A stretch of DNA of 64,000 bases from the NCBI RefSeq assembly GCF_020921035.1, contig NC_063156.1:806001-870000 (forward strand). The letters are read 5' to 3'. The stretch is from Rhodamnia argentea (taxonomy: Eukaryota > Streptophyta > Magnoliopsida > Myrtales > Myrtaceae). Numbering within the stretch: the stretch's first letter is position 1; every line of letters starts with the position of its first letter. The notes beneath the pieces are model-generated. The model saw nothing but the letters and a program-made list of their open reading frames with translations. It was not told the origin of the DNA and searched no databases. Shown piece by piece: positions 25,183-51,622 of the stretch. The position numbers and the translations under genes are program-made.

Positions 25183-25578
25183 TTATTTGGAGGCGATCAT
25201 CATTTTGTATTTGTCGGTGTATTTGATGCGGCGGTTTCTCTTGTCTTCGCTCATCGATGCTCGATCATAAGATCCACGCAAGTGAAAAGCAAACGAACGA
25301 GACGACCCGACCCGGTCTTCTTGGATCTTGACTTGTCGGATGCTTCTTCATTGCATTTCCTCGCAATCTGTCTTTACTCTCTTTGCATCAACCCCTTGTT
25401 GGTTTCAATCCTTTATCCTTTGGAAGGATGACATATGTGTTAATAATTGTTGCGGAGATGTGGGTCGATGTATCATACAACTTTTCATCTTGATTTCCTG
25501 GGGAGACTATCTTTGTCTCTTCCTTTGTACACTTGAGAAGAAGTATCTCTTGCATCCCCGACGTATTATGACCAAATA

Positions 25579-26292: not shown

Positions 26293-26299
26293 TCCAAAC

Positions 26300-28600: not shown

Positions 28601-29414
28601 AGCAAAGCAAGGTCGGATGCCACTTCTCCTTACCAGCAAAGAAATCAAACTACTTCAAAAGTAGCTTCCAAAATTGTGTGATCATGATCGCTCTTACTTA
28701 ATCTACAATCTTTATATGGTTTTATACTTGAGAAAAGTCTGTAGAAGTACCTATAATAATTAAGAGTTTAAATGATTTTTTTAAAATTCAAGAAATAAAA
28801 CTAAAATTTAAAGAAACAAAATTGTCCGAGCCGTCCAGGTGGGCGGTTCCACCCCTAGAACTGGAACCGAAAGTCACTGGTTCCAATTTTATGAAATTGA
28901 GAATCGATCCGGTCAATTCTTTTTGCTCGGCTCTAGTACTGCATGCATTATTGATCCATTTGGAGTGGCAAGTTAGTCATATTGATATATGGTAACACGA
29001 CCTGATATTTGGGCCTGGCCATCAGCTAGAACCGATATATTTGTGGATATCCAGGCTTCTCTGTGTGACTCCATTGTGCCTCATGCGGATCGAGAAGATT
29101 GGGTGATGTAGTTAGCTACTCCAGCTGATCAGTTCTTCATAAGCAGTGATTGTAATGGCTAAGTAGATCTTAATGCAACCAGGGACAGAACTTCCAAATG
29201 GTTTCGCTGTCTGGATATGATCTGTGCTTTTATGTGGGTCTTGTCCAGAAAATAGAATTCATCTTTTCATGACATGTTTAGTTGCTCAGAGAAATTTTGG
29301 GAAGAGTGTATCGCGAATTCGGCCATCGTAGAACTATTCGGAGCTGGGATTGGGAGCTTCATTGGGTTAATAATCATATGAAAGGGAAAGCAATACCTGT
29401 TCAAATTTTTAAGG
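28601..29414. other. Intergenic, identical to copy B over about 590 bp
   Basis: From about 28590 to 29177 I see no difference from the partner segment of copy B (which begins near 50190). No supported gene. Confidence 0.45.
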
Positions 29415-29665
29415 TCATAACTGTTAGGATTCGATGTACAATCAAATTAAAGTAAAACATAAAGCGAGAAAGAGAAATCGAAATATGAAATTGTATCATG
29501 GTTCACCCTTAAATTAGAACTACGTCTAGTAGAGGATTCCATAATAATAAGCACATCGCACCTCTCATTACATCACTCAATTATATGTGAAAAAGAATAT
29601 ATATAGCAGGGCCCACGTACTTTTATAGAGTACGAACCACACCCCAATAATTGCAAGGATCTCCC
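29415..29665 (-). mobile_element. Relic copia-type LTR fragment, copy A
   Basis: TGTTAGGATTCGATG, then ATGGTTCACCCTTAAATTAG, ACTACGTCTAGTAGAGGATT and a TATATATAGCAGGGC string resemble the reverse complement of the 3' part of plant copia LTRs. I cannot fix both ends. It lies about 100 bp from the duplication breakpoint. Copy B partner 51005-51262. Confidence 0.4.
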
Positions 29666-29725
29666 TGGTTCATTATTCTCATTTTGTTGTTGATAACAGT
29701 GTGATATTTCCAAGGATTTCTGAGG

Positions 29726-30205
29726 ATGTCCTGTATAGAAAAGAATAGGAATTATCTTAGTAGTACTCCCAGTATGAGGGGAACTGTTTGTTATATTGCC
29801 CCCGAGTACGGCGGCGGCAGCGATCTCTCAGAAAAGTGTGATGTGTACAGTTTTGGAGTGTTGTTGTTGGTTCTTATTGCAGGACGTCGCCCACTTCAGG
29901 TATCTGGCTCACCCATGTCTGAATTCCAGCGTGCCAATCTTTTATCTTGGGCTCGTCATCTCGCCCGAAGCAGAAAGCTTCTTGATTTGGTTGATCAGTC
30001 TATTCAGTCTTTGGACCGAGAAAAAGCACTTTTGTGCATCACGGTTGCTTTACAATGTTTGCAAAAGTCACCTTTACGCAGGCCTTCCATGAAGGAGGTG
30101 GTGGCAATGCTTACAGGGGTCTCTGAACCACCGCAATTACCATCAGAGTTGTCTCCTTCGCCTCCCTCCCGGTTTCCTTTTAAGTCACAAAGGAAAGTCC
30201 GGTGA
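29726..30205 (+). pseudogene. 5'-truncated receptor-like kinase fragment fused in frame to breakpoint sequence
   Basis: Copy B begins here. The first codons from the ATG at 29726 (MSCIEKNRNYL) come from the right end of copy A. From 29757-29759 the reading frame continues as SSTPSMRGTVCYIAPEY, the last 149 residues of the intact kinase at 6853-8904. It keeps the APE motif and the C-lobe helices (DVYSFGVLLLVLIAG, RRPSMKEVVAML) but lacks the glycine loop, catalytic lysine, HGD and DFG, so it cannot be a kinase. Only six bases differ from the parent over 447 bp, two of them changing residues (DREQ to DREK, IRRPS to LRRPS). Whether it is transcribed is unknown; it has no original promoter. Confidence 0.85.
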
Positions 30206-33200
30206 GTTTGCAACATCTGAACTATTGACGCACTTACTTCATCTTTGCGGATGGTCTGTGTAAAGAAATCCGTAGTTGTGTTTTTCATATTTTTATTTAA
30301 TGGATTTGGGTTTTTCTTCACATGCTTCTCTATCTGTTCTGATATAATTCGCAAATTTAGAATGTTCCTTATAATTATGATAGTTTGGGAGCTACTGAGA
30401 ATCAATACATGGGCGGCCCCCCCTCTTCATCTTTCCTTTCCACAACGTTTTTGGAATGCAAAAGTGGGTGGCTTTGGTTTCCTGCAAATGGTCTGTGTTC
30501 CATATTCTTGTGATGAGTTCATTAGTAAATTTCACTAGTTTCTCATATTCGAACATTCCGTCTTTCTTCTATTTTCCTTTTCAGCTCCGCTGAAAAGAAA
30601 CTAGCTCTGTTTATCTACTTTCTGCTGGATTGAAAGGACATATAATTTAGTACCATCGTGGTTATGGCGTCCAGACAAAAAAGGGCAGCAAAGAAAGGAC
30701 ATGTTGGAACACTAATTGACTAAATCCAGAGTTGTATAAAGAGTCGCAATCAATGGGATTTCAGGGAAAGTTTGCTGATTTGCATAACTCAGTAACCAGG
30801 CAATGTCTGTTCATTGCAATAATATCATATGAATCCATATTTTGGGTGACATGAAATCTGTTCAGCAGCATAGTTTTGAGATATGTTCATAGTCTGCATA
30901 AAAACTTTCACAAGAGGACACTACTTTCCTTTCCTTTCCTTTCAAGTTATTAATTTTCAAGTTAAGGAGAGTATTTGGTGCAGGACTTCAGCTTAAGATG
31001 TCTTAGGGCATGTCTGGATAAGCTTCAATGTTTGAATGATGTGATAAAATCCAGTTTCCCTTGATGGACCGATGATTTATGTCTCTCTCAAGCAGTAGAT
31101 TAAGTTGAAATGATACAGGCAGCTGGGCACAATCTCGATCCGGCTGTCACCTTTTGCTTCAGTTTGGATGGATGAATTTTGGGTTGTTTCCCCAATCCAG
31201 CATGGGCAATTGATACTGCTTGAGAATGGGAGTTCATGATTAGTCCTAGTATAAGCTGACCAGAATTGTAGAGAGATTTTGGCAAGTTGTCAATCATGGT
31301 CTTAGCATGCTGATAGCCATTGAGATTCTACGTGATGACAACCCCGTAAGTGGAATATAGTTTACATAATTTCTTGTTTCTTTGCTCTGTACTCTCTTAT
31401 AGATGATTGTAGGGAATGTGAGATGGGGACATGCTATATTGTTGTTTTTTGAGTCGGAAATACTGTTCTTTCACCCCATTTACCTTCTGTACATTGCTTT
31501 GTTGCTGCAGCATGGCTTACAAATGCTAATGTTGTTAGGTTCGCAATCTGGATTATAATTGTAGTTTTTTTTTTTCAAAAGCTTGCAGCCTTCAGTGGTA
31601 TTGGAGAGGGGATCCATATTTTAAGTTAATGGCTTTGCCGGAAGTTGCCTTGTCACTTTTCTTTTGTACATATTTGGAAGGTCTTTGCCTCTTGGGTTTG
31701 ATTGATACTCGAGTTCATAGGTCTTCAACCTTAGGCGACTCGTTACTCATTAGAATTACAGAGTCACCGCCCTCATGCATGGCATTTTTTTGCACACCAG
31801 TCTGGCCTCAGACCATATGCATAGCAATTTACGAATTCTTTCAAGCTGCTTTGTTGGTTCATGGAAAATTCAAGCACAGGTTGAAGCATGAGCAATCCAG
31901 TTGCAGGTAATCGGAAAACAATGAACTAATTCTAAACTCCAAAGGGGAGCCAAGTGGGTGAGTATTTGGATAGAGCTCACCAACCAATTTTTGCAACTCA
32001 TGTTTGATGGGCCCCATGTAGAGTGGCCAACTCGATTGGCAACAAGTTTGGGTGAAATGGGTTAATGAAAAAACAAAACCTAGTGAAATGGGTTACGTTG
32101 GGATTGCTGAAATGGCCCATATCCCAACTCATTTGCCATTCTAACAAGACAGGTGTGGGGACTTAGCTCAAAGGAAACTCAAAAAACCTCAAACTGAGAT
32201 CGTGGCTCTTCTCTCTTCTCGTGTGCTCACTGATCTCTCATCCGTAGACAGCTTGATTTCACGTTCGAAATCACTTATGTGCCCTTCTTTATTGAACCGT
32301 CATTGCTTTCGACGCTAGTGATTGAATCGAAGCGACTCATGCTCTTCTTTCTTGTCACTGCTCTCAACGCTTGAGCATCAAAAAGTTTCTAAGTTACTTT
32401 CTTCTTATCGGTAGTGCTAGAACCATAGATCAATGACTCATAAAACTATAAAAGGAAGTTAGAAAAACTGGAAGATTTACTGTCTAAATGTATTGCTAGT
32501 GATCTGGTAGTTTGTGGAGGTTAAGGAAATGCAGTGTGAAGTACAATTGGTAAGGAGCCATACATGCAATTTTTCAGTCATCTGGTGGTTCCGGGAGCAT
32601 ATGGGCTTTGTGAATTGTGCGTTGGTAAGTGGAAATTTCTAAGAATTGGAGCCCGATTGAGTTTGGTATGAATTGGGTCCAAGCCGTGTTAGGTATAGTT
32701 CGCTAAAATTGTTTTCCATGAAAATGGATCAGTATGTGCGAAATGGATCAAAGTGGGTCAAACCCATTGTCAACCCACGTAAACCCGACCCAACATAACC
32801 TTTTGATAGGACTACGTATATATTCTCCTTATTATAAGGCTGAACACGTCTTAAGATCACATTTACAAGTATTTCAAGAAATAATTATTCGCAAATATCA
32901 CAATCTTTGATTCATTAGAAAGCTTAGAGGTGAACTTATTCGGATATACCGACAAGCTCACCCACAAAGCCACCAAACTCTTCGCTAATATTCCAGTCTC
33001 CAAATTAAAATTTCTCTGAACTTTAGGTCAGCACAAGAGTTTGGTGGCTGTACTTGATATGATAGTTAATCAGATGCAAGCATCCTCAAATACTATAAGG
33101 ACTTGAAATGATTGTGCAAGATTTCGGCCTGATGCTTCCACACCACAACCTTCTAATTTTTTTAAGTATGAGATCTATGTTGATATTAACGAAGGATCAG

Positions 33201-33397
33201 AATCTGCAGAATCAGTTTGTGGGCTCTGAAGAATTTAGGGATTACTAAATGCGGAGGGGCTAAACTTGGTTTCCCAACTAAATCATCGGAAAATGCTATT
33301 TAATCATAATTCGGCAACTTTTTTCTACACAACGAGGATATTATCTACATATTATAGTTGGAATTAAGTAATCAATTGCCTTGTGTTTTGCATGGAC
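30206..33397. other. Copy B partner of 8905-12092, no supported gene
   Basis: Collinear with copy A at about 97-98% by eye. No supported coding region. Confidence 0.4.
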
Positions 33398-33402
33398 ACA
33401 TG

Positions 33403-33846
33403 TGTTGAATCTCAAAGTCGCGAAGCACGTCTCAATCCTCAAGATGATCGAAGACTATCGAAAGTGAAAGATTCTCTTCACACAAGAGAAGTTTCCAAGG
33501 GAGGAGATGGATGGACTCGATAATTTACTATATTCACCTTACTTTCACCTTACTAAAACGATTACAAGACTTACCTTTATATAGGTTTAGAAACATGACT
33601 CTTGACATACTCTAGGTACATGAAAAGAACTGTCTAGATACATAGCAATAATTACATATCGGAATACTAAAAGACTCTCGAGACACACGACAAATAATGA
33701 CTCTTAAAAAACTACAAAGCAATAATGACATTAAACATGCACGTCGGATAGACGACTGTCGAAAATCGAAAAGTCTATCGACAACCATAAGAATATGAAG
33801 AGTCACACTATTGAAGATTCTAGAGTAGGCGGTGATATCTTCAATA
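33403..33846 (-). repeat. Copia 3' LTR (444 bp)
   Basis: Plus-strand ends TGTTGAAT and TTCAATA. About 22 substitutions against the other LTR (about 5%), mostly transitions. Confidence 0.93.
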
Positions 33847-33853
33847 CTCCCCC

Positions 33854-34831
33854 TCACCGACTACTATCTCTTAGGACAGATCTCGCAACCATACCAAGCT
33901 GAGTTCTAAACTCATCGAACTTTGCTGCTCCAAGACCTTTGGTGAAGATATCAGCAACTTGATCACCTGTTTTGGTGTATTCCATTTTGATCTCGCCCTG
34001 CAAGACCTTCTCTCGGAGAAAATGATAGTGTACTTCCACATGCTTTGTTCTAGCATGAAAAACTGTATTTTCTGCTAAGCTTATAGCAGATAGATTATCA
34101 CAAAACAATATTGTCGAATAATCTATCGATTGATGAAGATCATCCAATAACCGCACTAGCCACGTACTCTCCCGAGCTGCCATTGTTGCTGCTCTGTATT
34201 CAGCTTCTGTCGTCGACAGAGACACGATCGGCTGTCTTTTACTGTACCAGGATACTATTGTTGATCCAAGATTAAATGAGTATCCAGTAGTCGAGCGCCT
34301 TGTGTAGTGATCTCTAGCAAAGTCGGCATCGCAATAACCGACCAACTCACCCAATGAGACTCTCTTGTACAAAAGGCCAAAATCAAACGTCTTCTTTACA
34401 TACCTCAAGATACGCTTTGCTGCATCCAAGTGAGGCTTCCGTGGTTTCCCCATAAATCGACTTGCTACTCCCACTGCAAAAGCGATATCGGGTCGAGTTA
34501 TGGTAAGGTAAATTAGACTACCTACCAATTGACTATACATGGTCGAATCTTCTAACTCCCGACCTTCATCAGCACACGCCTTTGCATTCCCATCCAACGG
34601 AGTAGATATAGGCTTGCAATCGAGCATCCTGAACTTCTCCAAGAGATCTCGTGCATACTTCTGTTGACATAGGAATAATCCTTCCTTTGTCCGATCAATC
34701 TCGAGTCCCAGAAAGTGTTTCAGCTCTCCAAGCTCCTTCATCTGAAAACGGAGAGATAGATTGTCTCTAATTCGACATATCTCATCTTCATCATCTCCAG
34801 TAATGATGAGATCATCCACATAAACCAGCAC
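33854..34831 (-). pseudogene. Copia reverse transcriptase C-terminal part and RNase H
   Basis: An open 325-codon piece of the retrotransposon polyprotein. It carries the RT catalytic YVDD near its start and the connection [10 protein letters not shown]. RNase H motifs are [16 protein letters not shown] and FCDN, followed by HTKHV-like residues ([11 protein letters not shown]) and the DIFTK tail. It is cut from upstream RT by an in-frame stop near 34931. This is the best preserved part of the element. Confidence 0.9.
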
Positions 34832-34930
34832 GGCTACTATCTTTCCATCTTACGCCTTCACGAATAAGCTCGAATCTGCTGGGGCTACGGAATAATCATT
34901 TCTCAATAAGAATTCTGCGATCTTCCCATA

Positions 34931-35365
34931 CTATGCTCTCGGGGGTTGCTTCAAGTCATACAAAGCTTTCTTTAGCTTGCAGACATATTCTGGATGATTT
35001 TTGCTCTTGAAACCATCCGATTGCTCCATGTATATTTCTCGATCAAGCTCTCCATGAAGAAAGGCATTCTTCACATCCATCTGCCATAGATTCCACAACT
35101 TGCTTGCTGCAAGTGCTAACGTAACTCGAACAGTAGTAACTTTAGCCACTGGGCTAAAGGTTTCTTCATAATCGACGCCATACTTTTGCGAGAAACCTTG
35201 AGCGACTAGACGTGTTTTATACCTCTCTATCGACCCATCCGGTAGAGTTTTCAATTTATAAACCCATTTGCAAGATATAGGACGTACCTCTTCAGGTTTC
35301 GGCACCAAGTTCCACGTCTCATTCTTCTTTAATGCGAGATCTCTTCTTCCATGGCATTTCTCCAC
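34931..35365 (-). pseudogene. Copia reverse transcriptase N-terminal part
   Basis: Contains [53 protein letters not shown] and [10 protein letters not shown], the standard start of copia RT, including the first catalytic aspartate (MDVKNAF). The frame ends in a stop just after QPPRA. The N-terminal junction to integrase is out of frame. Confidence 0.9.
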
Positions 35366-35571
35366 TCTGCATCCTTCGATGCTTCCTCATATGTCAACGG
35401 CTCCACTGTGCCAACATCTTCGATCAACGCTGCATTGGCATACTTAGGGTTTGGCCTCCTCTGCCTCCGTGATCTCCGAAGTCGATACTCCTCTTCTTCG
35501 GGTTCCTCTACCTGACTTGGTCGAAATTCTTCTGTTACTATTCAATGCTCACCGGATGAACTTGTCGAACC

Positions 35572-36123
35572 TTATGATTGTGCTTCGACATCTTTTTCGA
35601 TAGGCTCATCCTCATCAAATTCTTTCAACCTTTCTTGAAACTCTTCTTCGATATGCTGTGAATCTGGCAATTCGACGGCTTGAGGTGACCACCATGACGA
35701 CAATTCGTCGAACACCACATTTCTCGAAATATAGCACCTCCCTGTTGTAGGATCACAGCACTTCCACCATTTTCGTTGATCATCATAACCCACGAAAAAA
35801 CATCGAACCGCCTTCTTATCGAATTTGCTGCGAAGGTGTTCTGGCACAAATGCATAACATACACATCCAAAAACTCTGAAATGACTTACCACAGGCTTGC
35901 AATTCCATAATCTCTCGTATGGTGACATGGAACCAAGCCTTGCTTGTGGCAATCTGTTAATCACATGCGCCGATGTCTTCATACACTCAGCCCAAAATTT
36001 AGGTGGAACATTCTTCGCATGTAGCATCCTCCCGCATGTCTCTGCTAGATGCCGATTCTTCCTTTCACAACTCCATTTTGCTGTAGCATATACGAACAAG
36101 TAAATTGTCGACGTATCTTGCAC
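35572..36123 (-). pseudogene. Copia integrase C-terminal part, shifted frame
   Basis: Continues integrase after a frameshift near 36060-36110: [35 protein letters not shown], and the GKKAVRCFFVGY-like segment (FDKKAVRCFFVGYDDQRKWW). The acidic tail ends at a stop before RT. Confidence 0.88.
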
Positions 36124-37514
36124 TCTCGCAAATACTTCGTGAATTCATTAGAAGTATATTCTCCCCCGTTATTAGTACGAAGGCAAAGAATCTTCTTGCC
36201 CACTTCACTTTCTATCTTCTCCTTAAACTCCTTAAATTTGATAAATGCCTCAAATTTATCTTTCATAAAATCAACCCAAACATACATGGAAAATTCATCG
36301 ATAAATATGATCATATACTTTGATCTACCAATAGACGATTGCTTCATTGGACCAAACACATCCAAGTGAATGAGCTCGAGAGGCGTACGAGCTTTGAACG
36401 ATGATTCCTCATAAGAAAGCTGATGTGCCTTTCCATGCTGGCATCCAGCACAGACCACATCTTCTTGAACTTCCAACCGGGGGAGGCCATTCAGCATATT
36501 CTTCTGCATTATCACTTTCAACTCGGCGGTGGACGAGGCAGCGAACTCGTCTTGCACCTCCGTTGCAACAGACGCATGAAAATCCCATTCCACATTGTCA
36601 TCGAAATCACTCCTCTTCGATGATGCTGCGATATTTCCTTCAACTCTCTTTCCTCGACAATCTTTGGCGAAATGACCTTCTTTGCCACGGACGTAACATC
36701 GTCCACTACGTTTTTTGTCATTGCCATAGCGGTTCCGCCAAGCTCCCCCTGATCGAAGGCTCGTCTCTCCTAGACGCTTTTTCCATTGTCCATGAGCTAG
36801 CTGCTTTTGCATTTCGACATGACTTTTTCCCGGCTTGTCATCTCTATTGTCAACACCGATTCTCCTCTGGCCCTTGAACCCTCTTTTATCACCGAAGAGG
36901 GCACTCTCATCTCCCTTAATCAAAACCTTAGATATTTGATTATCTAAAGTTTCTTGATTGGCCAAAATATTCTCCAGTTCGGTCAACGTTGGTTGAGTTG
37001 CCCATCCACGAGTAGCCGTAACAATACCATTATACTCCAGCTTTAACCCGTGAATAATAATCCTTCTCATTCTCGTTTCGGAGATGGCATTATTCGGATC
37101 TAGCTTCGAAATTTTGTCACAAATAGACTTAACTTTGGAGAAATACTGACTCACCGTCATATTTTGTTGTGACATCGACAGCATCTCGTTCTCCAACCTT
37201 TGCAACTTGAAATCATTCGACCTCGCGAACAACGCTGCCAAGTTAGCCCATGCCTCCTTGGGAGTCTGCGCACTATTTATATGCTGTAACAAGTCATCTT
37301 CAACGATCACAGCAAGAGCGTAAAGAGCCTTACCCGCTTTGATGTTCCATCTCCTCGGATCACCATCGTTTGTAGGTGCCATGGTGTTGCTTCCACCAAC
37401 AATATCCCACAAATCTTGACCCCGCAAATAAAACTGCATGCGAGTACTCCAATTATTATAATTGGAATTGTTGAGCTTCTCAATACCATTTGTCGAACTT
37501 GATACGTCCGCCAT
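36045..37514 (-). pseudogene. Copia gag fused to integrase, protease region missing
   Basis: The 489-codon frame starts with ATG 193 bases inside the 5' LTR. Gag is residues 1-330, with a zinc knuckle at 273-286 in which the second cysteine is arginine ([14 protein letters not shown]). After residue about 330 the sequence jumps into integrase at [21 protein letters not shown]. No protease active-site DTG/DSG is present and the upstream zinc-binding histidines are gone, so a large in-frame deletion has joined the two parts. The integrase core keeps the first aspartate (HLDVFGP) but reads RTNNGGEY where RTDNGGEY is usual. The frame then runs out of phase after LQQNG. Confidence 0.88.
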
Positions 37515-37706
37515 CCGATTGGTGAAAAATGCCCGGCTTGGTCCCGATCAATTGATCACAGTCCCGCATTGTACTCTGGCGGAACTTCGACGTACTCCGG
37601 TTCTCGACCACTTACACACGAACAATGGTCGCTAATCACTGTCTTCACAAACCACGCTCCGGAAGACTTGATTCACGGTCCCCGACAACCGTGCTACGAT
37701 GCCAAA

Positions 37707-38150
37707 TGTTGAATCTCGTAGTCGTAAAGCACATCTCAATCCTCAACATGATTGAAGACTATCGAAGGTGAAAGATTCTCTTCACACAAGAGAAGTTTCC
37801 AAGGGAGGAGATGGATGGACTCGATAATTTACTATATTCACCTTACTTTCACCTTACTAAAACGATTACAAGACTTCCCTTTATATAGGCTTAGAAATAT
37901 GACTCTCGACATACCCTAGGTACATGAAAAGACCTGTCTAGATACATAGCAATAATTACACATCGGAATACTAAAAGACTCTCGAGACACACGACAAATA
38001 ATGACTCTTAAAAAACTACAAAGCAATAATGACATTAAACATGCGCGTCGGATAGACGACTGTTGAAAACCAAAAAGTCTATCGTCAACCATAAGAATAT
38101 GAAGAGTCACGCTATTGAAGATTCTAGAGTAGGTGGTGATATCTTCAATA
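37707..38150 (-). repeat. Copia 5' LTR (444 bp)
   Basis: Upstream LTR in the element's own orientation. Same length as its partner and about 95% identical by hand count. Confidence 0.93.
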
Positions 38151-38227
38151 ACATGTATGTCTCTCCGCTGCAAACATACCCTAGCAACTATGAATGTGAA
38201 CAACGTATATTATCTCGGAAACGAGCC

Positions 38228-38775
38228 AAAAAAGTCATAAATCTATTGTATTGATACCAATTCAATTATAAATCTTTTAATTGGGTCAATTGATGCTTGA
38301 ACTTGTTCACATTGGTACCAATTCAGTCTGTTAGACTAATTTATGCTGAAAATTGCTCACATTGACACTGGACATCCTACTTGGCACGGCTGAAATTGAC
38401 GTTGATATCCACCATCCATAGACCATGGCCGGTGAGGGCTAGCCTCGCTTGGGCAAGGGCGAGCACTTGCGACCCCCCCTCCCCTCCCCTCCCCCAAACA
38501 AACACTTGGGTGCTCGCCCTCACGGGCCATGGCTGGCTACCAACCAACAGAAAAAGGAGATGGGAAAGAAAATATATATACACACACACGCAATGTCTAC
38601 GTCAATACCGGCTATGCCACACAGGGCTGCAAGATTCACGTTAGAGATTTCTGGCCTAAATTAGCCGGATACATTGAATTGGTACCAATATGAAAATGTT
38701 TATGATTAAATTGGCTCAATTCAAATATTTATGATTAAATTGGTATCAATATAATAGGTTTAAATTTTTTTCTTA
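38228..38775. mobile_element. Fold-back element with GC-rich core, copy B
   Basis: Partner of 12166-12705, with the same imperfect arms and core. A small ACACACACAC expansion lies near 38580. Confidence 0.62.
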
Positions 38776-38873
38776 TAGTTTCCTATATTTTCTGCATCCA
38801 TTTACTGTGACCGGCCGGTCCTGAGGTTTGGCAACTGGGACATGACAAAAGATATGTCACGGATTTGCTACTT

Positions 38874-39590
38874 TATTCTGTGCAATAATGGAAAAATTAA
38901 AAGCAATACTTTCATGGTATACATAGCCGGGACCACCCGGCTCAAATGAATCAATATATCGACCATGGTGGTCATCTATGCTTCTTTACCAAATCAGCTA
39001 AGAAACGCAAGAACTTGTCGGCAATTTCACTCGTCGAAACTCAATAAGCGGACTGAAGAAACATGGCAATCGAGGGAGATGAGAGCGATAACGATGTCGA
39101 ATACGTCTATCAATTAAGCCCTTTTTTGTGCGTTGCGTTTTTGACTTGGAAAGCGATCGGGATAATCCGTTACGATGAATTTTTTGTTTTTCTTCGACAG
39201 TTATCATGATTTTACTTTCACTTTTTGGAGAATAATCTCTCATCTACGGGATCACAGCAGCATCAAATGCCTCCGCGCCCGCCGACCATGTCGAGCTTTC
39301 CATTCGCGATTGTAAAATCTCTCGTTTCTCTATGATGAGGGAAGACTTTTCTCTCCATCCTTTTGAACTCTTTCACTATTGAGTATGGACGCGTACAATT
39401 TGGACCTCCTTTTTGAACTTTCTGTCATGAATTCCTGATAAAGGTCGTGTGAATACATCCCTTTCACATTTGCTGCAATCGCTACTTTCACCAAGAGGAA
39501 GAGATGCTTGGGATAAACTGTAAATGGGGCTTCATTTCTCCCAAAATTCGTCACGCGAAACTCATTTTCCAGATGACGATGCATGCGCGT
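38874..39590. other. Near-identical partner of 13774-14490
   Basis: About two differences in 710 bp, including TATGCATAGCC versus TATACATAGCC at the start and GTCACGTGAAA versus GTCACGCGAAA at the end. The same two minus-strand frames remain open. Confidence 0.4.
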
Positions 39591-40085
39591 CGGCGAGGCC
39601 CTCTCGCCTAGATCGAGGTAGCCTTACCAGCCGCAGGTGAAGCCTGGTGAGGTGGCCTCGTCCACAGCTACGCTTTCTCAAGGGTTTCGTGATGAGTCGG
39701 GTGGGTTTCGTCATGGGTTGCGATGGGTCGTGAGGTGCGGCCATGAGCGAAGTCTCCTCACCTAGATCTGCTTCAGGCCAGCCTTGCCTGCGACTCACTA
39801 GCCGCGGGCAAGGTAGCCTCACTAGCAATCTTGCATGCCTCACCTACACCCGAGCCCTTGCTCGCTAGTCTGCGAACTCCGACGACCTTCGCCGGCCACA
39901 AAGGAGGAAGAGCGAAAAAAAATAAAGAAAGAAAAATTCAAAAATTCAAAAGTTTTTTAAATAATTAAAATGTTATTAAAACTTACCACGTTAACACCAA
40001 TCGGCAATATGGACTAAATTGACACAATTACAAAAGGTTTAGGACTGAATCGGAAAAAAAAAAAATGTTTAGAATTGAATTGGAT
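39591..40085. repeat. Truncated GC-rich repeat, copy B
   Basis: Core and right part of 14640-15285. The left 284 bp seen in copy A (14494-14777) are absent. It differs from copy A at about 3%. Confidence 0.5.
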
Positions 40086-41093
40086 TTATGACTTTTTTAG
40101 TAATTTTCTCTCTCAGGAGCTTATGAGGTATTTTCTTTTTTCTTCACCTATTCCTTCAGTGTCACTGATCAAATTTTGCCAGTTCAACGCGGTTGACGGT
40201 CTTGTGCCAATTAAGAAAATTAACAGCAAACATCTGCTATTCATATGCATACTTACATGAATTTTAAGGGCATAACTGAAACAATAGTTCTGTATTGAGT
40301 AATTTCTTCCTACAAAGATCTGACAATAATTTCAGTTTGTAGAAAAGTTATTATGAATAGATTAAAGTTTTCTTTATATCATGCAATTTATCGAACCAAC
40401 ATTTTTTGGAGTTTCATACTTTTGTTTTGTGGTCGAAAATCGATTTACTTCATTCATAAATTCAAAGGATTACATAAGTTATGGGTTTCTATACACAAAA
40501 GAACACAAAAGAACCCATAAAATTGATGGTGGCACAACAAGCCAATTGTAAGGAAGAGTCTTCTTGCGATGTGTTACGGCGATCCTGCGGTATTCCATGG
40601 CATTAGATGATAAGCGTATAATCTGAAACTACTAGTCCGAACTATCATTTCCACGATTTTGTTAATGTTTCATATTTATTCACGTGTCTAAATAGTTGTG
40701 GTCGATAGATTATAACGATAAATGATAGTCATTAAATGTGATAATTTTACTGCAATCGCTCGTTAAGAATGCAGGTGAAACCTGGATAGACCATGGAGCA
40801 TGTGACATGGTAGGTTTCGAGTTCCAGAGTATGCAAATGAGGTTCTAGGTTCAAAAAAAAAATGTAGAACTTGTTCCGATAGGTAGGTTTCAATTTTCAA
40901 ATGGAACCTGTACGGAATATGAAACCGATCTACTTTTACGTGGAGCTAAAACACACCAAATATTTAACTCAAAAACATTTATGAACTATTTATTTGGATT
41001 TATTTGTCAAATTCAAAATTTGAGATAGTTTTCATCATTTTTTCCATCGATGACAACCAAATGGGACATAACTCGGTAAGATAGAAATTGAAT

Positions 41094-41521
41094 GGAATAA
41101 TGACATAAATGGTTCCTAAATTTTGACCCAATATGCAATATGATCCATGAACTTTTAATTTGACCAATATAGTCTTTGAACTTTAGCTCAATGTGCAATG
41201 TGGTCCCTGGGTTTTCAATTTGGCTAATATTGTCTATGGACTTTTGAAACATGTTCAACTTAGTTCCTAAACTATAACAAGACGTTCAATATAGTCCTTC
41301 GATTAATTCAAGTTCAAGGACAACATTGGACATTTTCTTATAGTTCGGGGACTAGGTTGAACATGTTCCAAAAGTTCAGATATCACATTGAATAAATTGA
41401 AAGTTCATAGATTACATTACACATTGGGCTAAAGTTCGGTACTCATATTAATCAAATTAAAAGTTCATGGACCACATTGCATATTGGGCCAAAGTTGAGG
41501 GACCATTTGTATCATTTTTCC
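41094..41521. mobile_element. Fold-back element, copy B partner of 16273-16700
   Basis: Same two-armed structure and length. Confidence 0.75.
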
Positions 41522-41730
41522 AAATTGGATTCATGCCACTATTTAGTTCTATAGTTTTTTTCAATCAACCTTTTCATAGAGATTGTTTCATATTTTTTTT
41601 ATTCAAAGACCATATCCGGAACAATTGAGTTTTTTTTTTCTTTATGGATTCGATTCCACGGCTTCTTCTAGAAATCGAAAAAAAAAACTGGTCTAATTCA
41701 TTCAAATAAAAGGAATGTGGTGAAATTATT

Positions 41731-42138
41731 TAGGGGTGAGCCATTTCGGGTTCGTCCGGGTTCTCCCTCCAATTTGGAACCTACTCGTTCGAACCGATTT
41801 CTCATTTTTTGAAACTTAAAACCTACTCCGTAACGGGTTTCGTGTCCGTTCCAGAATCTACCCAAGAGCCGATAATTACTTTTTTTTGTTTCATTTTTAG
41901 TTAAGCAAAATGAAAGTGAACGCAATAACAAAACTAAAAATTTCGCACTTGTCAATAGCAACAATTCATAAAAGATGAACACTTAAAATAAATAAAACAA
42001 TAAAAAAATTCAAAAAAAATTATAGAACTTCAATCCTTAATCATCCATAAAAAATTGCTCCAAATTCTGACCACCTAAAATAAAAAAAGAAATGCCAAAA
42101 TTGTTTAATAAGAAAGCCAAAGTGTATAAGTCAATTTC
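41731..42138. mobile_element. hAT-like element truncated by the copy B deletion
   Basis: Begins TAGGGGTGAGCC like 16912-17499 but loses its right part where the sequence jumps from GTCAATTTCGG straight to GTGAAACCCGTGCC, copy A position about 20589. Confidence 0.65.
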
Positions 42139-42838
42139 GGTGAAACCCGTGCCAAGGCGGCCGGTAGGGTCCTCCACATCATAGTGACCAAGAAGATGCC
42201 TCTGCAAGTCGCCGATCTTGCATAGGGAAAACCATAACTAGGTGATGGGCTGGGATGAAACGGCTATTAGAAGCCGGCCGCGCCCGCTGGGAAATATGAA
42301 TGACGGCGTGTTATGGCTCTAGACATTGTCTTTGGGCATGGGTATTGACAAGAAGAGGGCTCTGCTAGTTCTGGCGACAGTTGACCCCCGCCACCGACAA
42401 CCCTTGCACGATATGGGTGCACGCCCTTGCCATCGGTCGGCGAAAGGTGGCGGCAACCCTCTTCGACCACTTTCCCACCATTGCTTGCCCTTTCGGGCCA
42501 CGGTGGGGTGGCGGCAATGAGGGTTGCAAGCCCTCACTGCTGGTTCGGATTCTTTTATTATTTTAAATTTAGTTTATTTTTAAAGTTTTAAAGAAAAATT
42601 AAATTAAAAATTAGATTCGGACTAAAACGTCATCCTTTTAGCTATGCCATCGCCACATAGAAGAGAGAAAATATTTAAAAAATTCACATCAACATTTTTC
42701 ATTAGCCAAATTGGACTGAGTTTACGGAATGACTTGATTGCATCCATTTAACAAGTTTTAATACTCAATTGCACATTTTGTAAATTTTAGGACTCAATTG
42801 CACTTTCGTGATAAGTTTTAGGACTTTCATGTGAACAT
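42139..42838. mobile_element. Fold-back element missing its left arm, copy B
   Basis: Core and right arm of 20212-21282. Divergence from copy A reaches about 11% over the first 180 bp, the highest seen in the duplication. Confidence 0.62.
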
Positions 42839-43002
42839 ATCGCATTCATGCAAAGTGGTCGTAACTTACGTCAATGGGCAACATGATTCTCAATAGAAAC
42901 AATGTAAAAGGAGTTTCTATAGCTTAGTGCAATTTTTTGTAACGTCATTATCCAAGCATAATAACCAATGTAAAAGGAGTTTCTATAGACCTATTTAATG
43001 GA

Positions 43003-43393
43003 TGTCAATTCAATCTTACAGTTTTTGATTTGGCTAATTTAGTCCTAAATCTTTTGAAGATTTGTCAATATAGTTTTTTCAACCAATTTTAGCAGAAAAT
43101 CACCGACTTGGACAAGAGCTGTCCAACACCGACGTGGACAGTTTTTGTATTTTAAAAAAAATCAAAAGATTTTGAAAATAATAATTACAAAAATTGTCAA
43201 AAGATTTTTAAAATAGCCGGGGTCTATGACGAAAACAAAAACTGTCCACGTCGGGGCCGACCAAGCGACATAGCAAAGCTAGGGTCTATGACAGCAATTT
43301 CAAATCAAAATTGGCCGGAATGACTATATTAGCAAATCGTCAAAAGATCTAGAACTAAATCGGCTAAATTGAAAAAGTTTAGGACTGAATCAA
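43003..43393. mobile_element. Fold-back MITE-like element, copy B partner of 21445-21842
   Basis: Same arms. The inner GGACAGTTTTTGT / AAAAACTGTCC pair is retained. Confidence 0.62.
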
Positions 43394-43772
43394 TGCACAC
43401 ACAGTAGGTTTACGATCTTTATTATTATTTAGTTTTTGGACAACTTTCCCTCATTACTCATCTGAAGTATTTGACTGGCTTTATGCTTGTACGAGCTTAT
43501 TCTACAGTGCATTGTCACCGTACCATGTCTCCTGTCATTGGCCATTGTGAACCGTGTGGAGTCGATACTCATTCGCCCTTGTAAATCATTCGAGGATCTC
43601 CGAATCGGCCGGACAGTTGAGAGTGCTCTTTCGTCACGGTCCTAATGGCTATATTTAATTATAGTCTATGCTAGCTAATCAGCAGCTGGATTTTAGCAAT
43701 TCTAAGATGCTGTTTTGTCCCCCATTCGTTCAATCACATTCTCAAGCTACCTCCTAAAATCCCCCTAATTAT

Positions 43773-43893
43773 TTTAAGAGAAACGATTTTCTGACAAGAC
43801 TGATCGAAACAGTACAATCTCGATTGTGGATCTACACATCATCATTACATGATTTGCATAAAACACTCATTAATTGAAAGATCGTGTGATAAT
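43773..43893 (-). repeat. Dispersed repeat, copy B partner of 22222-22345
   Basis: Same CAATTAATGAGTGTTTTATG core on the minus strand. Confidence 0.55.
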
Positions 43894-44316
43894 AAATAAC
43901 CGACAGTAATATCATACCGTCGGGCTAGAACATGACCACACATCTCTCAATAGGCTAGTAGCTTCCTTTCTTCAAATTCCCAAACAGATTAATCCCCATG
44001 GCTGTTGTTATTGTTCTGCGTTTAGCTTCAAAGTAGCCACGGGCCCCTAGTTAATGATCCCAATTCAATTAATTATACACGTCTAACTTGTTCTATGACA
44101 ATTTAATTTCGATTTATGAGAAAGATCAAGATGTCATTTTCCGTAATTGGGTCATTGTCCAACCCATCAACCGATGGCTTCTTAATTGATTATCAAAATG
44201 GATTGCTTGGTCAAGCTCTTAGCGGGGCTGATATTGTCAAGGGGTTCGGATTAGAAGAATGACGCCATTACTCGTTGAAATCAAATTAGACATTACTCAA
44301 GAATACAAAAATTAAT

Positions 44317-44685
44317 GGGATGATTGTCCAAAAAGTCTTAAATATATTGTTCGGCAGTCAATTCAATTCTAAGCCTATCAATTTTGCTAATTTAGTTTTA
44401 AACCATTGGTGATTTACCAATCCAGTCCTAAATCTTTTGAAATTTTGCCGATTTAGTCACTTGGATAATTGGTGAAAAGGAGTCTATTGACAAGTTGTCA
44501 AAAGGTTTAAGACTAAATTAATAACTCGCCTAAAAGTGTAGGACTAAATTAGTACGAATGAAATGTTTAAGACTATAACTTGACAAATCGTCAAAAGATT
44601 TAGGACTAAATTGGCATAATTGAAAAGTTTAGAGTGGAATTAGTCATTGTACAATAAGTTCAGAATTTTTTGGAAAATTTGCCCC
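44317..44685. mobile_element. Fold-back MITE-like element, copy B partner of 22767-23131
   Basis: Same arrangement just upstream of the copy B PTI1-like kinase. Confidence 0.6.
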
Positions 44686-45091
44686 AAAAATTAATGTATG
44701 TGTATAATAGAACATGTAGGACAATGACTTGGAATATCTCTGCAAGAGATTCAATAAAGAAATCTCCCATTTCCAATGGCAATGCTTGGCATAACCCGAC
44801 AAGTGCTAGAGACACCAGCTGGAAGCTTCTGCAATAAAATACACTCTTTGTGTTCTTTTTTGTTCTCATTGTCGGCTCCATTCCGGATGCCTTGACCTCC
44901 AAGGCTGCCCTTCTGTCTTCACCATAAGGCCCTTTCAGCCCTGCATAGATATATCAGTTTGCACTCGCGTTTTGCTTTCTTCTTGCTTGATCATCTTGGT
45001 GTCTTCTTCATCCTCCTCTCTTATCTGTCTTCATAGAGATTCACCCCCTTCTTTTCCATCTTCGCCTCTTCGCGAGTTTTCTTCCAGTAGG

Positions 45092-46736
45092 ATGATGTTC
45101 TGGAGGTGTTTATGCTGCATCTCGAAATTTGACGAACGGCCAGAGATCAGGTAAACGTTCGACGGGCCAGCTGCCGATCTTCTGTAGCTAGTATGTCGAT
45201 CGAGTTCGAATGAATGTGCTTTGTTTTGACGATTTTTTTTGCTATTTTGATGTATTCTTTCTGAAGCGTGAGCAACAACAAGGACTACCCATGGGAAATT
45301 TACTCTCTCAAGGAGTTGCTACACGCGACGAACAACTTCCACAACGACAACAAGATCGGGGAGGGCGGTTTCGGAAGCATTTATTGGGGTCGAACAAGTA
45401 AAGGCGTAGAGGCAATTATGTCCATTTCTTGTGTTTCTATTTGAGATTATTTCCCTTTGTTCCATGCGAAACAATACGAATGCATGGCCTCGGTAAGACT
45501 GAATAGAGACTCCTGTAAGCTCTGTGAAACGATGTTAAACTTGACTGAATACTATCGCAGGTCGCGGTGCAAAGACTCAAAGCGATGAGCGCGAAGGCCG
45601 AAATGGAGTTCGCGGTGGAGGTGGAGATTCTTGGCAGGGTGAGGCACAAGAACCTTCTAGGGTTGAGGGGATTCTACGTGGGCGGCGATGAGAGGTTGAT
45701 CGTGTACGATTACATGCCTAATCATAGCTTGATAACTCATCTCCATGGCCAACTCGCCGAAGATTGCTTGCTCGATTGGCCGCGAAGAATGAGCATCGTG
45801 CTCGGATCAGCTGAGGGTTTAGCGTAAGTGACCTCACTGAATCGCTGGCTATGTGACCTGGTTACGACTCCTAGAATCACCACTAGCAAATCAGATTTAC
45901 GGTTATGTTCGAGAACAAATGTCCTCCAAACATGTTTTATTAGAAATTCAGATTCCTTAGCCATCGCACTGTAGGAACATTATTCAGTCTAGATTTTCAA
46001 CTTACTCATGGAGATTAGGTTTCTCAGCACCTTCTAGATCTGAATTTTCACTACATGCTGCTCAAATTTTAGCCTGTGTTCTCTTGCTCGTTTAAGGTAC
46101 TTGCATCACGAGGCAAATCCTCACATAATTCACCGAAACATAAAGGCGAGTAATGTCCTTCTGGACAACCAATTCCAAGCGAAAGTTGCGGATTTCGGTT
46201 TCGCTAAACTTATCCCGGACGGCGTTACTCATTTGACGACAAGAGTGAAGGGAACGCTAGGCTACTTGGCTCCCGAGTACGCGATGTGGGGGAAAGTTTC
46301 GGACAGCTGCGACGTCTACAGCTTCGGAATATTACTCCTAGAGATAATTAGTGCCAAGAAGCCACTGGAGAAGCTTCAGGGCGGAGTGAAGCGCGACATC
46401 GTGCAATGGGCGACGCCATATGTGCAGAAGGGCGCGTTCGACCACATAGCCGACCCGAGATTGGAGGGGAAATATAAACTGGACGAGCTCAAACTGGTGG
46501 TCATGATAGCAATGCGATGCACGGATCATAATCCCAAGAACCGGCCGAGCATGATAGAGGTCGTGCAGTGGCTCAAGGGAGGTCTGAGGCGGAAGAAAGA
46601 GATCGGACATGTCATCAGCAAGGCTAAAGAAGACGATGGTGACGATGAGGAGAACGATACGGACTACTACGAAGGGTCTGCCATAGACGAATTTGATGAC
46701 AAGAGAAAAGCATGGAAGGCAACCAAGGTGAGATAA
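45092..46736 (+). CDS. PTI1-like kinase, copy B: intact frame but predicted catalytically dead (pseudokinase)
   Basis: Exons 45092-45150, 45267-45411, 45561-45823 and 46097-46736 have exactly the same lengths as copy A and encode 368 residues with no stop or frameshift. The ATP-anchoring lysine is glutamine (VAVQRL, residue 72; AAA to CAA) and the catalytic aspartate is asparagine (HRNIKASN, residue 170; GAC to AAC). The glycine loop GEGGFG, DFG 188-190, APE and C-lobe remain. The family uses both changed residues for phosphotransfer, so catalysis is very unlikely, while folding and perhaps nucleotide or partner binding could persist. Other changes are mild (V58I, P79A, A108V). The GC donor of intron 2 is shared. 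Decay without frame loss could mean a scaffold or decoy role, or simply recent inactivation. Confidence 0.88.
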
Positions 46737-47137
46737 TTATTTGGAGTTGAACGTCATTTTGTATTTGTGGGTGTATGTGATGTGGTGGTTTCTCTTGTCT
46801 TCGCTTATCGATGCTCGATCATAAGATCCACGCAAGTGAAAAGCGAAAGAACGAGACGACCCGACCCGACCCGGTCTTCTTGGATCTTGACTTGTCGGAT
46901 ACTTCTTCATTGTACTTCCTCGCAATCTGTCTTTACTCTCTTTGCATCAACCCCTTGTTGGTTTCAATCCTTTATCCTTTGGAAGGATGACATATGTGTT
47001 AATAATTGTTGCGGAGATGTGGGTCGATGTATCATACAACTTTTCATCTTGATTTCCTGTGGAGACTATCTTTGTATCTTCCTTCGTACACTTGAGAAGA
47101 AGTGTCTCTTGCATCCCCGACGTATTATGACCAAATG

Positions 47138-47871
47138 GGAAAATGACACAAATAGTCTCTAAATTTTGAAACCCGATGTGCAATATCATCCTTGGACTTT
47201 TTATTTGTTCAACGTAATTCTTGAACTATTCATAAATGTTCAATCTAGCCCCTAAACTTTCGATTTGTTCAATCTAGTTCCCTAGCTTTACAAAACAAAG
47301 TCGAATCAGTCCTTCCGTACTATTTACGAGTTTTCATAATGATTCTATTGCCTAGATTTTAGAATATCTTTTTTCATTTCAACCCATTTCCAAAACTACC
47401 TTTTTGGTCTTTATAAATATTGATTGACATTGTAGTATATTTTAGCTTCTTCCTTTTTTTTGGGTAAGGGTATATTTTAGCTTATGATCTCTACAATAGT
47501 ACAAGTAAAATGTCATTCAGAGTTGTATCATGTGTATTGACGCTATTTTAATTACTTCATTTACGGATTCAACTAAATTTGAAGAAGAAAACACAAAGCA
47601 CAAGAACTTGAAAATTTGATCTATCTAAAAATTAGGAACAAGATTTAGATTCATATGAGTACGAGATACCCATGTTTTCTTTTGTTGATTTAGGAAATAG
47701 GTTATATTAAAAAGATATTCTAAAATTCGGGTAAAAGTGTGAATATGCAAATGTTGAACTTTTTTGTGGAAAATTAAGGGACTAAAAGGACTGGAATTAA
47801 ACTAATTTGCAGTACAAGGATAGCATTGCATATTAGATAAAAAATTGATGAACTATTTGTGCGATTCCTCC
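47138..47871. mobile_element. Fold-back element, copy B partner of 25579-26292
   Basis: Same arms. Near 47785 a short stretch of the right arm is deleted relative to copy A. About 25 bp are gained near 47450. Confidence 0.62.
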
Positions 47872-48722
47872 AAACCAAATAATCACATCGTTGTATGCTA
47901 TGTGTTCTGGCCAAATTTTTTTCGGAAATCGAAACTCTCAATCTTAGCGACAGAAGAATTCGTCATGAACTTGATTATGTGCTACAACCATTGCGTAGAA
48001 GTACCTTTCGTATGAGGAGGTGTGTTGTGCCGGCAGCGATGGGGTTCATGTGTCATCTTCAAAAATGCACTTTCCACGTCGTGACGTTTTCGTATGGTCA
48101 CATGATAAGATAATCTGGCTATAGCCCACTTTCTCAATTTAATATTTTGGCCCAACGGGCCAAATTGGGGAGCCCAAATAGAGGCCTAATCAATCATTCT
48201 GGTCCATTCCTTGAGCAAGTTCTATTTATCAAAGGCGTGGCGCGAGGCTTTGCCACGTGCTCGTCCGAAAACTTTAGGATGCGTTTGTTTCTCAGAAAAA
48301 GAATTATTTTAAAAGATGTATTTTTAAAAATAATAATTTATGTCGCTTGAAATGATTAATCAATGAAAAATATTTTCGATATTGACAATAATTAATATCT
48401 AAATATTTTCGAGGACTATGGAAATATTTTGTCCATAAAAAAATATATTTCAAATCAAACAAATGAAGCCCTAACGAGAAATTGTGATAATGTATCGTGT
48501 TATCCTTTTGTATTGTAGCATTTTTTGGCCCCTGCGTCCCGAAATTCATTCTTCATTCGTTTGGCTTTGGAGGAACTCCACCACCAAAAGCGACATCCCT
48601 AACCACTTTTCAGTAATGCCATTCTGTAGATCAAGAACCTGACAGGGGTAGTGAAGATTTTTCAAAGAAGGAAGAGTTTGCAGTCGAGACAGAAGTGAGC
48701 AAAGCATCCGGGCGAATCTAAT

Positions 48723-49112
48723 TGGGAAAAGTACAAAAAAAAAAGTCTTAATTCTATTGTATTGATACTAATTTACTCGTAAATTTTTTAATTGAATCGG
48801 TTTAGTTCTAAATCTTTTTGTATTGGTACGATTTGAGTCCATCCGGCCACTTTTTACCGAAAATTGCTGACATGAATTTCAACCATCCTACGTGGCACGG
48901 CCGAAACTAACCTTGACATATTTAGTAATATTTTGAATTTTTTTTTTGTTCTTTTTTCTTTTCTTTTCTGTGCTTTACCTTTCTTTTTCTTTTTCTTTTT
49001 TGCTGTGGGATAGCGAGGGTCGTCGGCCGACCCTCGCCGGCCACAGGCAAGGGCCGTAGACCCTTGTCGGCCCCGGGCGAGGATGGCGAGGCTGTGATGC
49101 CCAGGCGATATT
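48723..49112. repeat. Partial fold-back element, copy B partner of 27133-27520
   Basis: Left arm and GC-rich core only. Confidence 0.48.
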
Positions 49113-49629
49113 GAGAGAATATGCTTTGTTTTGACAATGTGATATTGAGAGAATATGAGAAATACCCATAATTTTTCACTTGAACTTTTAAGGGTGTTCT
49201 TGACTGTTAAGAGCGAAATTCACTCTCAGCCGTTGAATTCAGGCATAGATAAATTTGGACTAAATCAACAAATCAGTATGAAGTGAAAGACATGACCTGA
49301 TAATTATAAAATCGGTATATCGATATAAATTGTCCGTCACATTTCTGGGAGATGAAACAGATGATAATAACTTTGCATCAATAATGGTTTTTCGGCTATT
49401 GTAAGATAAGTTAATGACCCAGGTGGATATGATTAACCCGGCTAATATAGCCTCCGATCTAAAGGCAAGAGTCGCTTTACGTAAATTGTCCGCAATAAGT
49501 CGAACAGGGTCATTAATTGTATGCTAAGCATTGAAAAATGGATGCTGATAGCGTGCTATTTTCCATAATACTGTGGTACTACATAGGGTGATCGATTTCC
49601 TGGCGGGGTTCGGTTCCGATTTCGGATTG

Positions 49630-50200
49630 GGAATCGGACCGGAGGGACCGATATTCGGCTTTTGGAACCAGGGACCGGACCGGACCGACTAGTCCAATTC
49701 CTAAGCGATCCGGTGGAACCGGTCGCATGTGCTTGATACACATATTCATACATTTTTTGTATTGTGCTTGAGTGTATCACAAAAGTATTCAACTTTTGGA
49801 ACCGGGGACTAGACCGAACTAATCGGTCCAGTTCCTAACCAATCCAATGGAACCGGTCGTATGTGCTTGATACACATACTCACACATTTTTTGTATTGTG
49901 CTGTAGTGTATCACAACAATATTCAGCTTTTGAAATTGGGGATCGGACCGGACTGACGGGTCTAGTTCCTAAGCGGTCCAGTGGAACCGATCGCATGTGC
50001 TTGATTCGCATACTCACACATTTTTTGTATTGTGTTGCAATGTATCACAACAATATTCAGCTTTCGGAACCGGGATCTGACTGGACCGACCGGCCCGATT
50101 CTTAAGAGGTCCGGTGAAATTGGTCACACGTGCTTGATACACATATTCGCATATACACATATTTTTCGCATTCTGCTGCGGTGTATCACAACAACATTGT
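49630..50200 (+). repeat. 134-bp tandem repeat, copy B
   Basis: Same four-unit array as 28040-28600, with scattered substitutions and a short extra CATATACACATATT near 50150. Confidence 0.82.
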
Positions 50201-51004
50201 CAAGCAAAGCAAGGTCGGATGCCACTTCTCCTTACCAGCAAAGAAATCAAACTACTTCAAAAGTAGCTTCCAAAATTGTGTGATCATGATCGCTCTTACT
50301 TAATCTACAATCTTTATATGGTTTTATACTTGAGAAAAGTCTGTAGAAGTACCTATAATAATTAAGAGTTTAAATGATTTTTTTAAAATTCAAGAAATAA
50401 AACTAAAATTTAAAGAAACAAAATTGTCCGAGCCGTCCAGGTGGGCGGTTCCACCCCTAGAACTGGAACCGAAAGTCACTGGTTCCAATTTTATGAAATT
50501 GAGAATCGATCCGGTCAATTCTTTTTGCTCGGCTCTAGTACTGCATGCATTATTGATCCATTTGGAGTGGCAAGTTAGTCATATTGATATATGGTAACAC
50601 GACCTGATATTTGGGCCTGGCCATCAGCTAGAACCGATATATTTGTGGATATCCAGGCTTCTCTGTGTGACTCCATTGTGCCTCATGCGGATCGAGAAGA
50701 TTGGGTGATGTAGTTAGCTACTCCAGCTGATCAGTTCTTCATAAGCAGTGATTGTAATGGCTAAGTAGATCTTAATGCATCCAGGGATAGAACTTCCAAA
50801 TGGTTTCGCTGTCTGGATATGATCTGTGCTTTTATGTGGGTCTTGTCCAGAAAATAGAATTCATCTTTTCATGACATGTTTAGTTGCTCAGAGAAATTTT
50901 GGGAAGAGTGTATCGTGAATTCGGCCATCGTAGAACTATTTGGAGCTGGGATTGGGTTAATAATCATATGAAAGGGAAAGCAATACCTGTTCAAATTTTT
51001 AAGG

Positions 51005-51262
51005 TCATAACTGTTAGGATTCGATGTACAATCAAATTAAAGTAAAACATAAAGTGAGAAAGAGAAATCGAGATATGAAATTTTATCATGGTTCACCCTT
51101 AAATTAGAACTACGTCTAGTAGAGGATTCCACTATAATTAGCACATCGCATCTCTCATTACATCACTCAATTATATGCGAAAAAGAATATATATAGCAAG
51201 ACCCACGTACTTTTATAGAGTATGAACCATACCCCAATAGTTGCAAGGATCTCCCAGGTTCA
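51005..51262 (-). mobile_element. Relic copia-type LTR fragment, copy B
   Basis: Partner of 29415-29665. Confidence 0.38.
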
Positions 51263-51622
51263 TTATTCTCATTTTGTTGTTGATAACAGTGTGATATTTC
51301 CAAGGATTTCTGAGGATGTCCTGTATAGAAAAGAATAGGAATTATCTTGTTGTTGATAATAGTCTGGCTGCTAGTTGCACACCTGTTTTTTCGCTGTAGA
51401 GTGTTGCGGATGTATATATCCCTAATGTTCTTAGATATGTACGGGGAAGTCGCTTAATTAACAATACAAAGAGCAACATTAATCAACAAAAATATCGAAC
51501 AAAATGTCAATAATGTGTGCAATATTCGCGATCTTTAGAAGTACCAAGTTCTTCACCGTATTAACTCTTTTTATAATCCAAAAAGAAGCTTGTCCCAAAT
51601 CCCAAGGCAAATTCACATTTAT

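Follow-up and report, generated by a model that had tools for sequence, protein, structure and literature searches.

Two kinase genes within the window (the whole stretch of DNA analysed here, 64 kb, C7:806001-870000) are duplicates of each other, and one of them lacks two residues of the active site. Copy A carries VAVK and HRD, while in copy B codon 72 has changed from AAA to CAA (VAVQ) and codon 170 from GAC to AAC (HRN), just as a sequence-only reading of this DNA had reported. These substitutions, K72Q and D170N, are present in the assembly, specific to B and very probably inactivating. We favor, at a probability of about 0.5, the reading that B is a young, catalytically dead pseudokinase of the receptor-like cytoplasmic kinase (RLCK) type that would have kept its fold and membrane end, perhaps for a non-catalytic role. 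Decay of the copy is almost equally probable.

The two genes lie about 20 kb apart inside a tandem duplication of about 21.5 kb, in agreement with the earlier claim that the kinase had been duplicated. The features of the region are:

8456..29757, + strand: duplication unit 1
17770-18562: bHLH-type reading frame in unit 1 (PF00010 within 17770-18234)
23540..25182, + strand: copy A, intact kinase gene of four exons in which VAVK and HRD are present, from exon reading and Pfam match
23540-23598, 23714-23858, 24008-24270 and 24543-25182, + strand: exons of copy A
29757..51348, + strand: duplication unit 2, which carries copy B
29757..30205, + strand: headless 3' remnant of a neighboring kinase gene, cut by the junction
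33403..38150, - strand: LTR retrotransposon found in unit 2 only, with reading frames that by eye suggest the copia type
45092-46736, + strand: copy B, whole gene
45092..45150, + strand: copy B exon 1, Cys-rich N-terminus MMFWRCLCCISKFDE, same as in copy A (0/59 differences)
45267..45411, + strand: copy B exon 2, Gly-rich loop with V58I
45561..45823, + strand: copy B exon 3, VAVQ (K72Q at codon 72), E88 retained
46097..46736, + strand: copy B exon 4, HRN (D170N), with N175, DFG, APE and the acidic tail retained

Exon lengths are 59, 145, 263 and 640 nt in both genes, for a total of 1107 nt including the stop, 368 amino acids and no internal stops. The equal exon lengths and stop-free frame previously described for B are thus confirmed, provided that intron 2 is of the GC-AG type, as the four-exon frame needs a GC donor (GAG/GCAATT) at this intron (23859-24007 in A, 45412-45560 in B). 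Since the GC donor is found in both copies, it is older than the duplication; in two paralogues of the same genome, C4 (L115) and C8 (L116), the donor is GT. A GT is also present 6 bases upstream of the GC donor, and its use would remove two residues in frame. The coding sequences of A and B differ at 32 nucleotides, equivalent to 16 amino-acid changes and 15 silent codons, and the proteins are 95.7% identical (16 differences over 368 residues).

Both proteins are recognized as kinase domains, with scores of 152.4 bits for A and 140.2 for B against PF00069 (cut-off 31.7) and of 146.1 and 140.0 against PF07714 (cut-off 23.1). When A is aligned to BAK1, residues 72 and 170 correspond to the BAK1 VAVK lysine and HRD aspartate. 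The VAIK lysine and HRD aspartate expected of a catalytically competent kinase are both found in A and both missing from B. As a pseudokinase is defined in sequence by the loss of at least one of the VAIK Lys, HRD Asp and DFG Asp, B belongs in that class, with two of the three gone and DFG present. B retains E88, N175, D188 of the DFG motif, the Gly-loop glycines and APE, and the Gly loop is altered at V58I only.

Family placement and lineage of the catalytic changes

The PTI1-like label first given to the pair does not hold. In a tree of 32 rows and about 116 columns, covering five Pti1-type loci, A, B, C4, C8 and 23 hand-picked RLK loci, A and B group with C4 and C8 (100/100), apart from the five Pti1-type loci, which make up a clade of their own (100/100), so the PTI1 or Pti1 family (RLCK VIII) name was rejected. 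The identity of A is 42-47% to the Pti1-type rows, 39-56% to the 23 RLK rows and 73-75% to C4 and C8. The Pti1 query was a fragment with at least 150 genome matches, some of them 79-88% identical over the first exon piece; five were used and less similar ones, for example at 66%, were left out. The closest solved structures to the A/B kinase domain are plant RLK domains, with BAK1 at the top. The domain starts at residue 44 after a short N-terminus, with no space for an ectodomain, and by sequence A and B appear to be of the RLCK type. A literature search combining PTI1-like, pseudokinase, plant and HRD found no paper.

The genome searched spans 346.7 Mb in 74 contigs, of which C1 to C11 measure 24-37 Mb each, suggesting eleven chromosomes. 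Of the four matches from a DNA search of it, two are A and B themselves and the others are weak, at 75-76%. A third weak DNA match, C3 (L117), is a kinase further removed from A and B, with its aligned portion interrupted by an in-frame stop, and was dropped. The outgroups for polarizing the changes were the C4 and C8 paralogues, the latter presumably At3g15890, which share the four-exon plan and carry IAVK and HRD. At residues 58, 72, 108, 170 and 303 they share the amino acid of A and not that of B, while at 132 and 338 they match B instead, 338 lying in a poorly aligned tail. In collections described as covering viruses, bacteria and archaea, two scans of viral contigs found no outgroup relative, nor did a search of genome contigs with the whole protein; a fragment query of the latter matched at least 565 stretches, of which the 80 retained were bacterial by title, and none was used.

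Among other kinase loci of the genome, K72 is found in 108/108, D170 in 107/108 and V58 in 103/107, a baseline made of the best matches to A that hence under-samples pseudokinases. It derives from 113 matches among 2277 first-look candidates, of which 108 were read, C4 and C8 included; the five rows left out were three of A/B, the second exon of C4 and one partial match (C2:23987544). Because the lysine and the aspartate are present in A, in both paralogues and in 108/108 and 107/108 of these loci, respectively, both K72Q and D170N are derived in B, and the loss of catalytic residues by B is supported, as the sequence-only reading had proposed. A natural HRN motif like that of B is found in one other kinase, which retains the lysine, falls on a long branch in another part of the tree, and which we take to resemble BIR-type receptors in sequence:

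G000:C7:24474211-24475077: HRN kinase L165, lysine retained

By codon-model reconstruction, B has acquired about 9.3 amino-acid changes and A 6.7. The model took in only those outgroup codons that fall within A residues 27-318, and sites 25, 320, 330, 336 and 338 therefore stay at a posterior of 0.5, site 338 even though both paralogues carry the residue of B. Site 258 is in conflict: the codon model calls it B-derived (0.94), yet the valine of B is the commonest residue (41/108) and the methionine of A occurs once. All three A/B differences within the 39 near-invariant columns (58, 72 and 170) are changes in B.

Constraint on copy B

The leading alternative is that B is an early non-functional duplicate drifting unconstrained, with K72Q and D170N as its first visible lesions and frame decay too early to show. 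We regard this as a serious contender, somewhat short of even odds. The clean frame, which had been considered striking, is weak evidence for so young a copy. In a simulation that takes the surrounding noncoding divergence and treats all sites alike, CpG included, a neutral copy of the age of B is free of every stop and indel with a probability of 0.12-0.14, a point in favor of decay, and the fully preserved frame was rejected as evidence for that reason. The headless kinase fragment, which has no 5' half, likewise keeps an open frame in the 148 codons compared, where 4 changes are silent and 2 are replacements; it is a weak control, short and just 1.3% diverged.

Between A and B, dN/dS is 0.27-0.37 depending on transition weighting (Fisher p 0.0004-0.005), with a bootstrap 95% interval of 0.17-0.70 at a weighting of 2.5 and a silent divergence of 5-7%. 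As an average over the pair, this ratio cannot tell which copy is constrained. In a four-gene codon model with free branch times, ωB=1 fits as well (lnL -3093.81 vs -3093.79), and the silent sites of C4 and C8 are saturated, leaving the unclocked branch-specific ω uninformative. As A and B are in one genome and of the same age, equal neutral time for both is a fair assumption. The clocked model gives ωA 0.17, ωB 0.37 and a background of 0.037; it rejects ωB=1 (p=0.018), contrary to unconstrained drift, and does not reject ωA=ωB (p=0.30). It also rejects ωB=background (p=0.0003), while for A the same comparison is not clear (p=0.09). With codons 72 and 170 removed, ωB=1 is again rejected (p=0.005) and A and B are alike (p=0.66), so that outside those two codons B looks as constrained as A; the comparisons with background then give p=0.007 for B and p=0.06 for A. 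The lower constraint on B than on the background, together with a post-duplication ω of 0.27 that is far above the background of 0.03-0.04, favors decay. The case for constraint on B depends on the clock and on C4 and C8, two paralogues that are distant and saturated at silent sites.

A second measure of constraint comes from the noncoding sequence around the genes. At plain rates, the probability of so few amino-acid changes in B is 0.24 by introns, 0.08 by the unit and 0.002 by dS. Noncoding divergence is 0.14-0.32 at sites that are CpG in either copy and 0.022-0.051 at other sites, ranges that exclude the headless coding fragment (CpG 0.10, other 0.005). With CpG sites taken apart, the neutral expectation is 16-21 amino-acid changes per copy against about 9 in B, a deficit that argues against decay, with a mean P of 0.065 (introns), 0.006 (local noncoding) or 0.008 (whole unit). 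By the intron yardstick the deficit is marginal, which leaves ωB=1 not clearly rejected. The sequence-only reading had named a dN/dS well below 1, together with expression, as support for a retained function. Such a ratio is seen for the pair and, under a shared clock, for B by itself; it is not upheld by the unclocked model or more than marginally by the introns.

The CpG class holds 11/16 of the amino-acid differences and has a pN/pS of 0.76 (p=0.33), with no clear constraint, and outside it pN/pS is 0.26 (p=0.025). The five non-CpG amino-acid differences are K72Q, D170N and those at sites 156, 162 and 338, whose posteriors of B origin are 0.04, 0.37 and 0.5, respectively; K72Q and D170N are thus the sole amino-acid changes outside CpG hotspots confidently placed on B. 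Non-CpG changes in B other than 72 and 170 are fewer than neutral (P 0.0002-0.005). This isolation of the two catalytic changes outside CpG gives the best hint of B being retained as its catalysis was lost; it is a pattern noticed after the fact and built on very few changes.

Chance alone accounts poorly for the double loss. At least two of K72, D170, N175 and D188 are changed in a still-clean copy with a P of 0.007-0.013 in the neutral simulation, and the same loss has a P of 0.001-0.010 in draws of 5 to 16 changed residues, so the substitutions in B go beyond chance for a residue set picked after the fact. The three near-invariant changes of B, with a neutral P of 0.14-0.20 by simulation and 0.01-0.23 by draws of 5 to 16, are close to the neutral expectation and count against constraint. 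The A/B pair was itself selected for looking striking, and the small probabilities are inflated by that choice. The two changes had also been described as independent hits on the active site. Both are present; however, a second catalytic loss would be free once catalysis was gone, and the two are better read as one loss of constraint.

The duplicated segment and the remaining alternatives

The junction between the units falls within a second kinase gene, the intact copy of which is at 6814-8904. By eye, that gene has HGD where HRD is expected and a long insert after its DFG motif. There is no gap at the junction, where by eye about 2 bp of microhomology are shared with each parent sequence, and no N across the 64-kb window; together these suggest a genuine duplication by end joining rather than an artifact of assembly. 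The LTR element at 33403-38150 has LTRs that are 95.0% identical and a precise empty site in unit 1, and a 5-bp target duplication, ACATG, is seen by eye. Its insertion probably followed the duplication closely, since the 5% divergence between the LTRs is similar to that between the units. Unit 2 is without 3.3 kb of unit 1 that carries the bHLH-type frame. Most of the duplication is 2-11% diverged, with near-identical patches (99.3-100%) at 13770-14493 vs 38870-39593 and also at 26900-27199 and 28700-29299 that resemble the outcome of gene conversion or of highly uneven mutation. For the A/B kinase gene itself, a recent conversion is not favored, as divergence is even (0.020-0.040) over six 300-base bins at 23300-25099. 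Elsewhere in the window, tandem sugar-transporter genes at 543-2274 and 3758-5178 are about 80% alike; the frame of the second seems, by eye, to shift near 4790-4930, and this gene may be broken.

With one assembly as the sole source, K72Q and D170N could be sequencing errors or belong to a single haplotype of B that is still segregating, or the tandem unit could be an assembler's fusion of two haplotypes. We consider this improbable, given the absence of N and the form of the junction, the fact that both changes are single-base substitutions and not homopolymer indels, and a silent divergence and unit-2-only LTR element that point to an old duplication and not to alleles. In WNK-type kinases, a lysine in the Gly loop serves as a substitute, and this kind of rescue is ruled out for B by the lack of any lysine at residues 51-60. 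That B retains an atypical phosphotransfer despite Q72 and N170 is more improbable still: some pseudokinases are active and in plant ILK1 the change from HRD to HRN even raised activity, but B is also without the ATP lysine, and D to N abolishes activity in most kinases, ILK1 being an exception (PMC9403797).

A possible non-catalytic partner for copy A

The pseudokinase reading that we prefer starts from the tandem duplication of about 21.5 kb, which had its junction inside the neighboring kinase gene and gave rise to two kinase copies, apparently of the RLCK type. Copy A has stayed canonical while B has gained K72Q and D170N, retaining an unchanged N-terminal exon, the alpha-C glutamate, the catalytic-loop Asn, DFG, the activation segment and APE. 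With the ATP-orienting lysine and the HRD aspartate both missing, B is predicted to be unable to transfer phosphate, and its fold and docking surfaces are likely the same as those of A. Less certain is that selection keeps the B protein and lets catalysis go, and that B, if expressed, would be a non-catalytic partner competing with A or scaffolding it at the membrane. The N-terminal exon of A and B has an RCLCC motif, the same in both. As OsPti1a is reported to be palmitoylated at Cys6 and/or Cys7 (PMC8960991) and the cysteine exon is the same in A and B, B may share the membrane site of A.

The nearest functional parallel to B is Arabidopsis ARLPK1 and ARLPK2, which have no VAIK lysine, carry HGN in place of HRD, keep the DFG Asp, are without an extracellular domain and do not autophosphorylate (PMC4848489). 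ARLPK1 binds an active receptor-like kinase and works with it (PMC4848489). The ARLPKs differ from B in having HGN instead of HRN, a change in the Gly loop and an N-terminal transmembrane segment, and they are established genes with phenotypes, whereas B is a near-identical young copy beside an intact neighbor, known from sequence. The ZED1/ZRK cluster of RLCK XII-2 is similar in that its RLCK genes are clustered, most being apparently pseudokinases, and one member has been proposed to be an effector decoy mimicking active kinases (PMC9539561). Unlike that cluster of pseudokinases, the present pair has one dead copy beside one intact copy, and the likeness drawn here concerns the clustering. 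A decoy role for B like that of ZED1 is possible by analogy; nothing in the data points to an effector. In tandem kinase-pseudokinases such as WTK1/Yr15, a kinase and a pseudokinase are also side by side, but as two domains of one polypeptide rather than as separate genes (PMC6170490).

We tentatively suggest, at somewhat less than even odds, that selection preserved the membrane end of B along with its fold and the surface of its activation segment, and that phosphotransfer alone was removed, all while silent divergence from A had reached no more than a few percent. Under this scenario, A and B would be a natural active/dead duo, with B as an antagonist, scaffold or effector decoy for A. About one fifth of Arabidopsis RLKs are predicted pseudokinases (PMC4718504 and PMC4848489), and pseudokinases like B are already common in plants. 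Most of these Arabidopsis pseudokinases likely diverged long ago, so that the order of events in them would be lost. If B is silent, it would represent ordinary gene death. The A/B pair, with 16 differing residues of which two are catalytic, would make it possible to test whether catalysis is given up early in a protein whose fold is preserved, or whether its loss is simply the earliest mark of decay.
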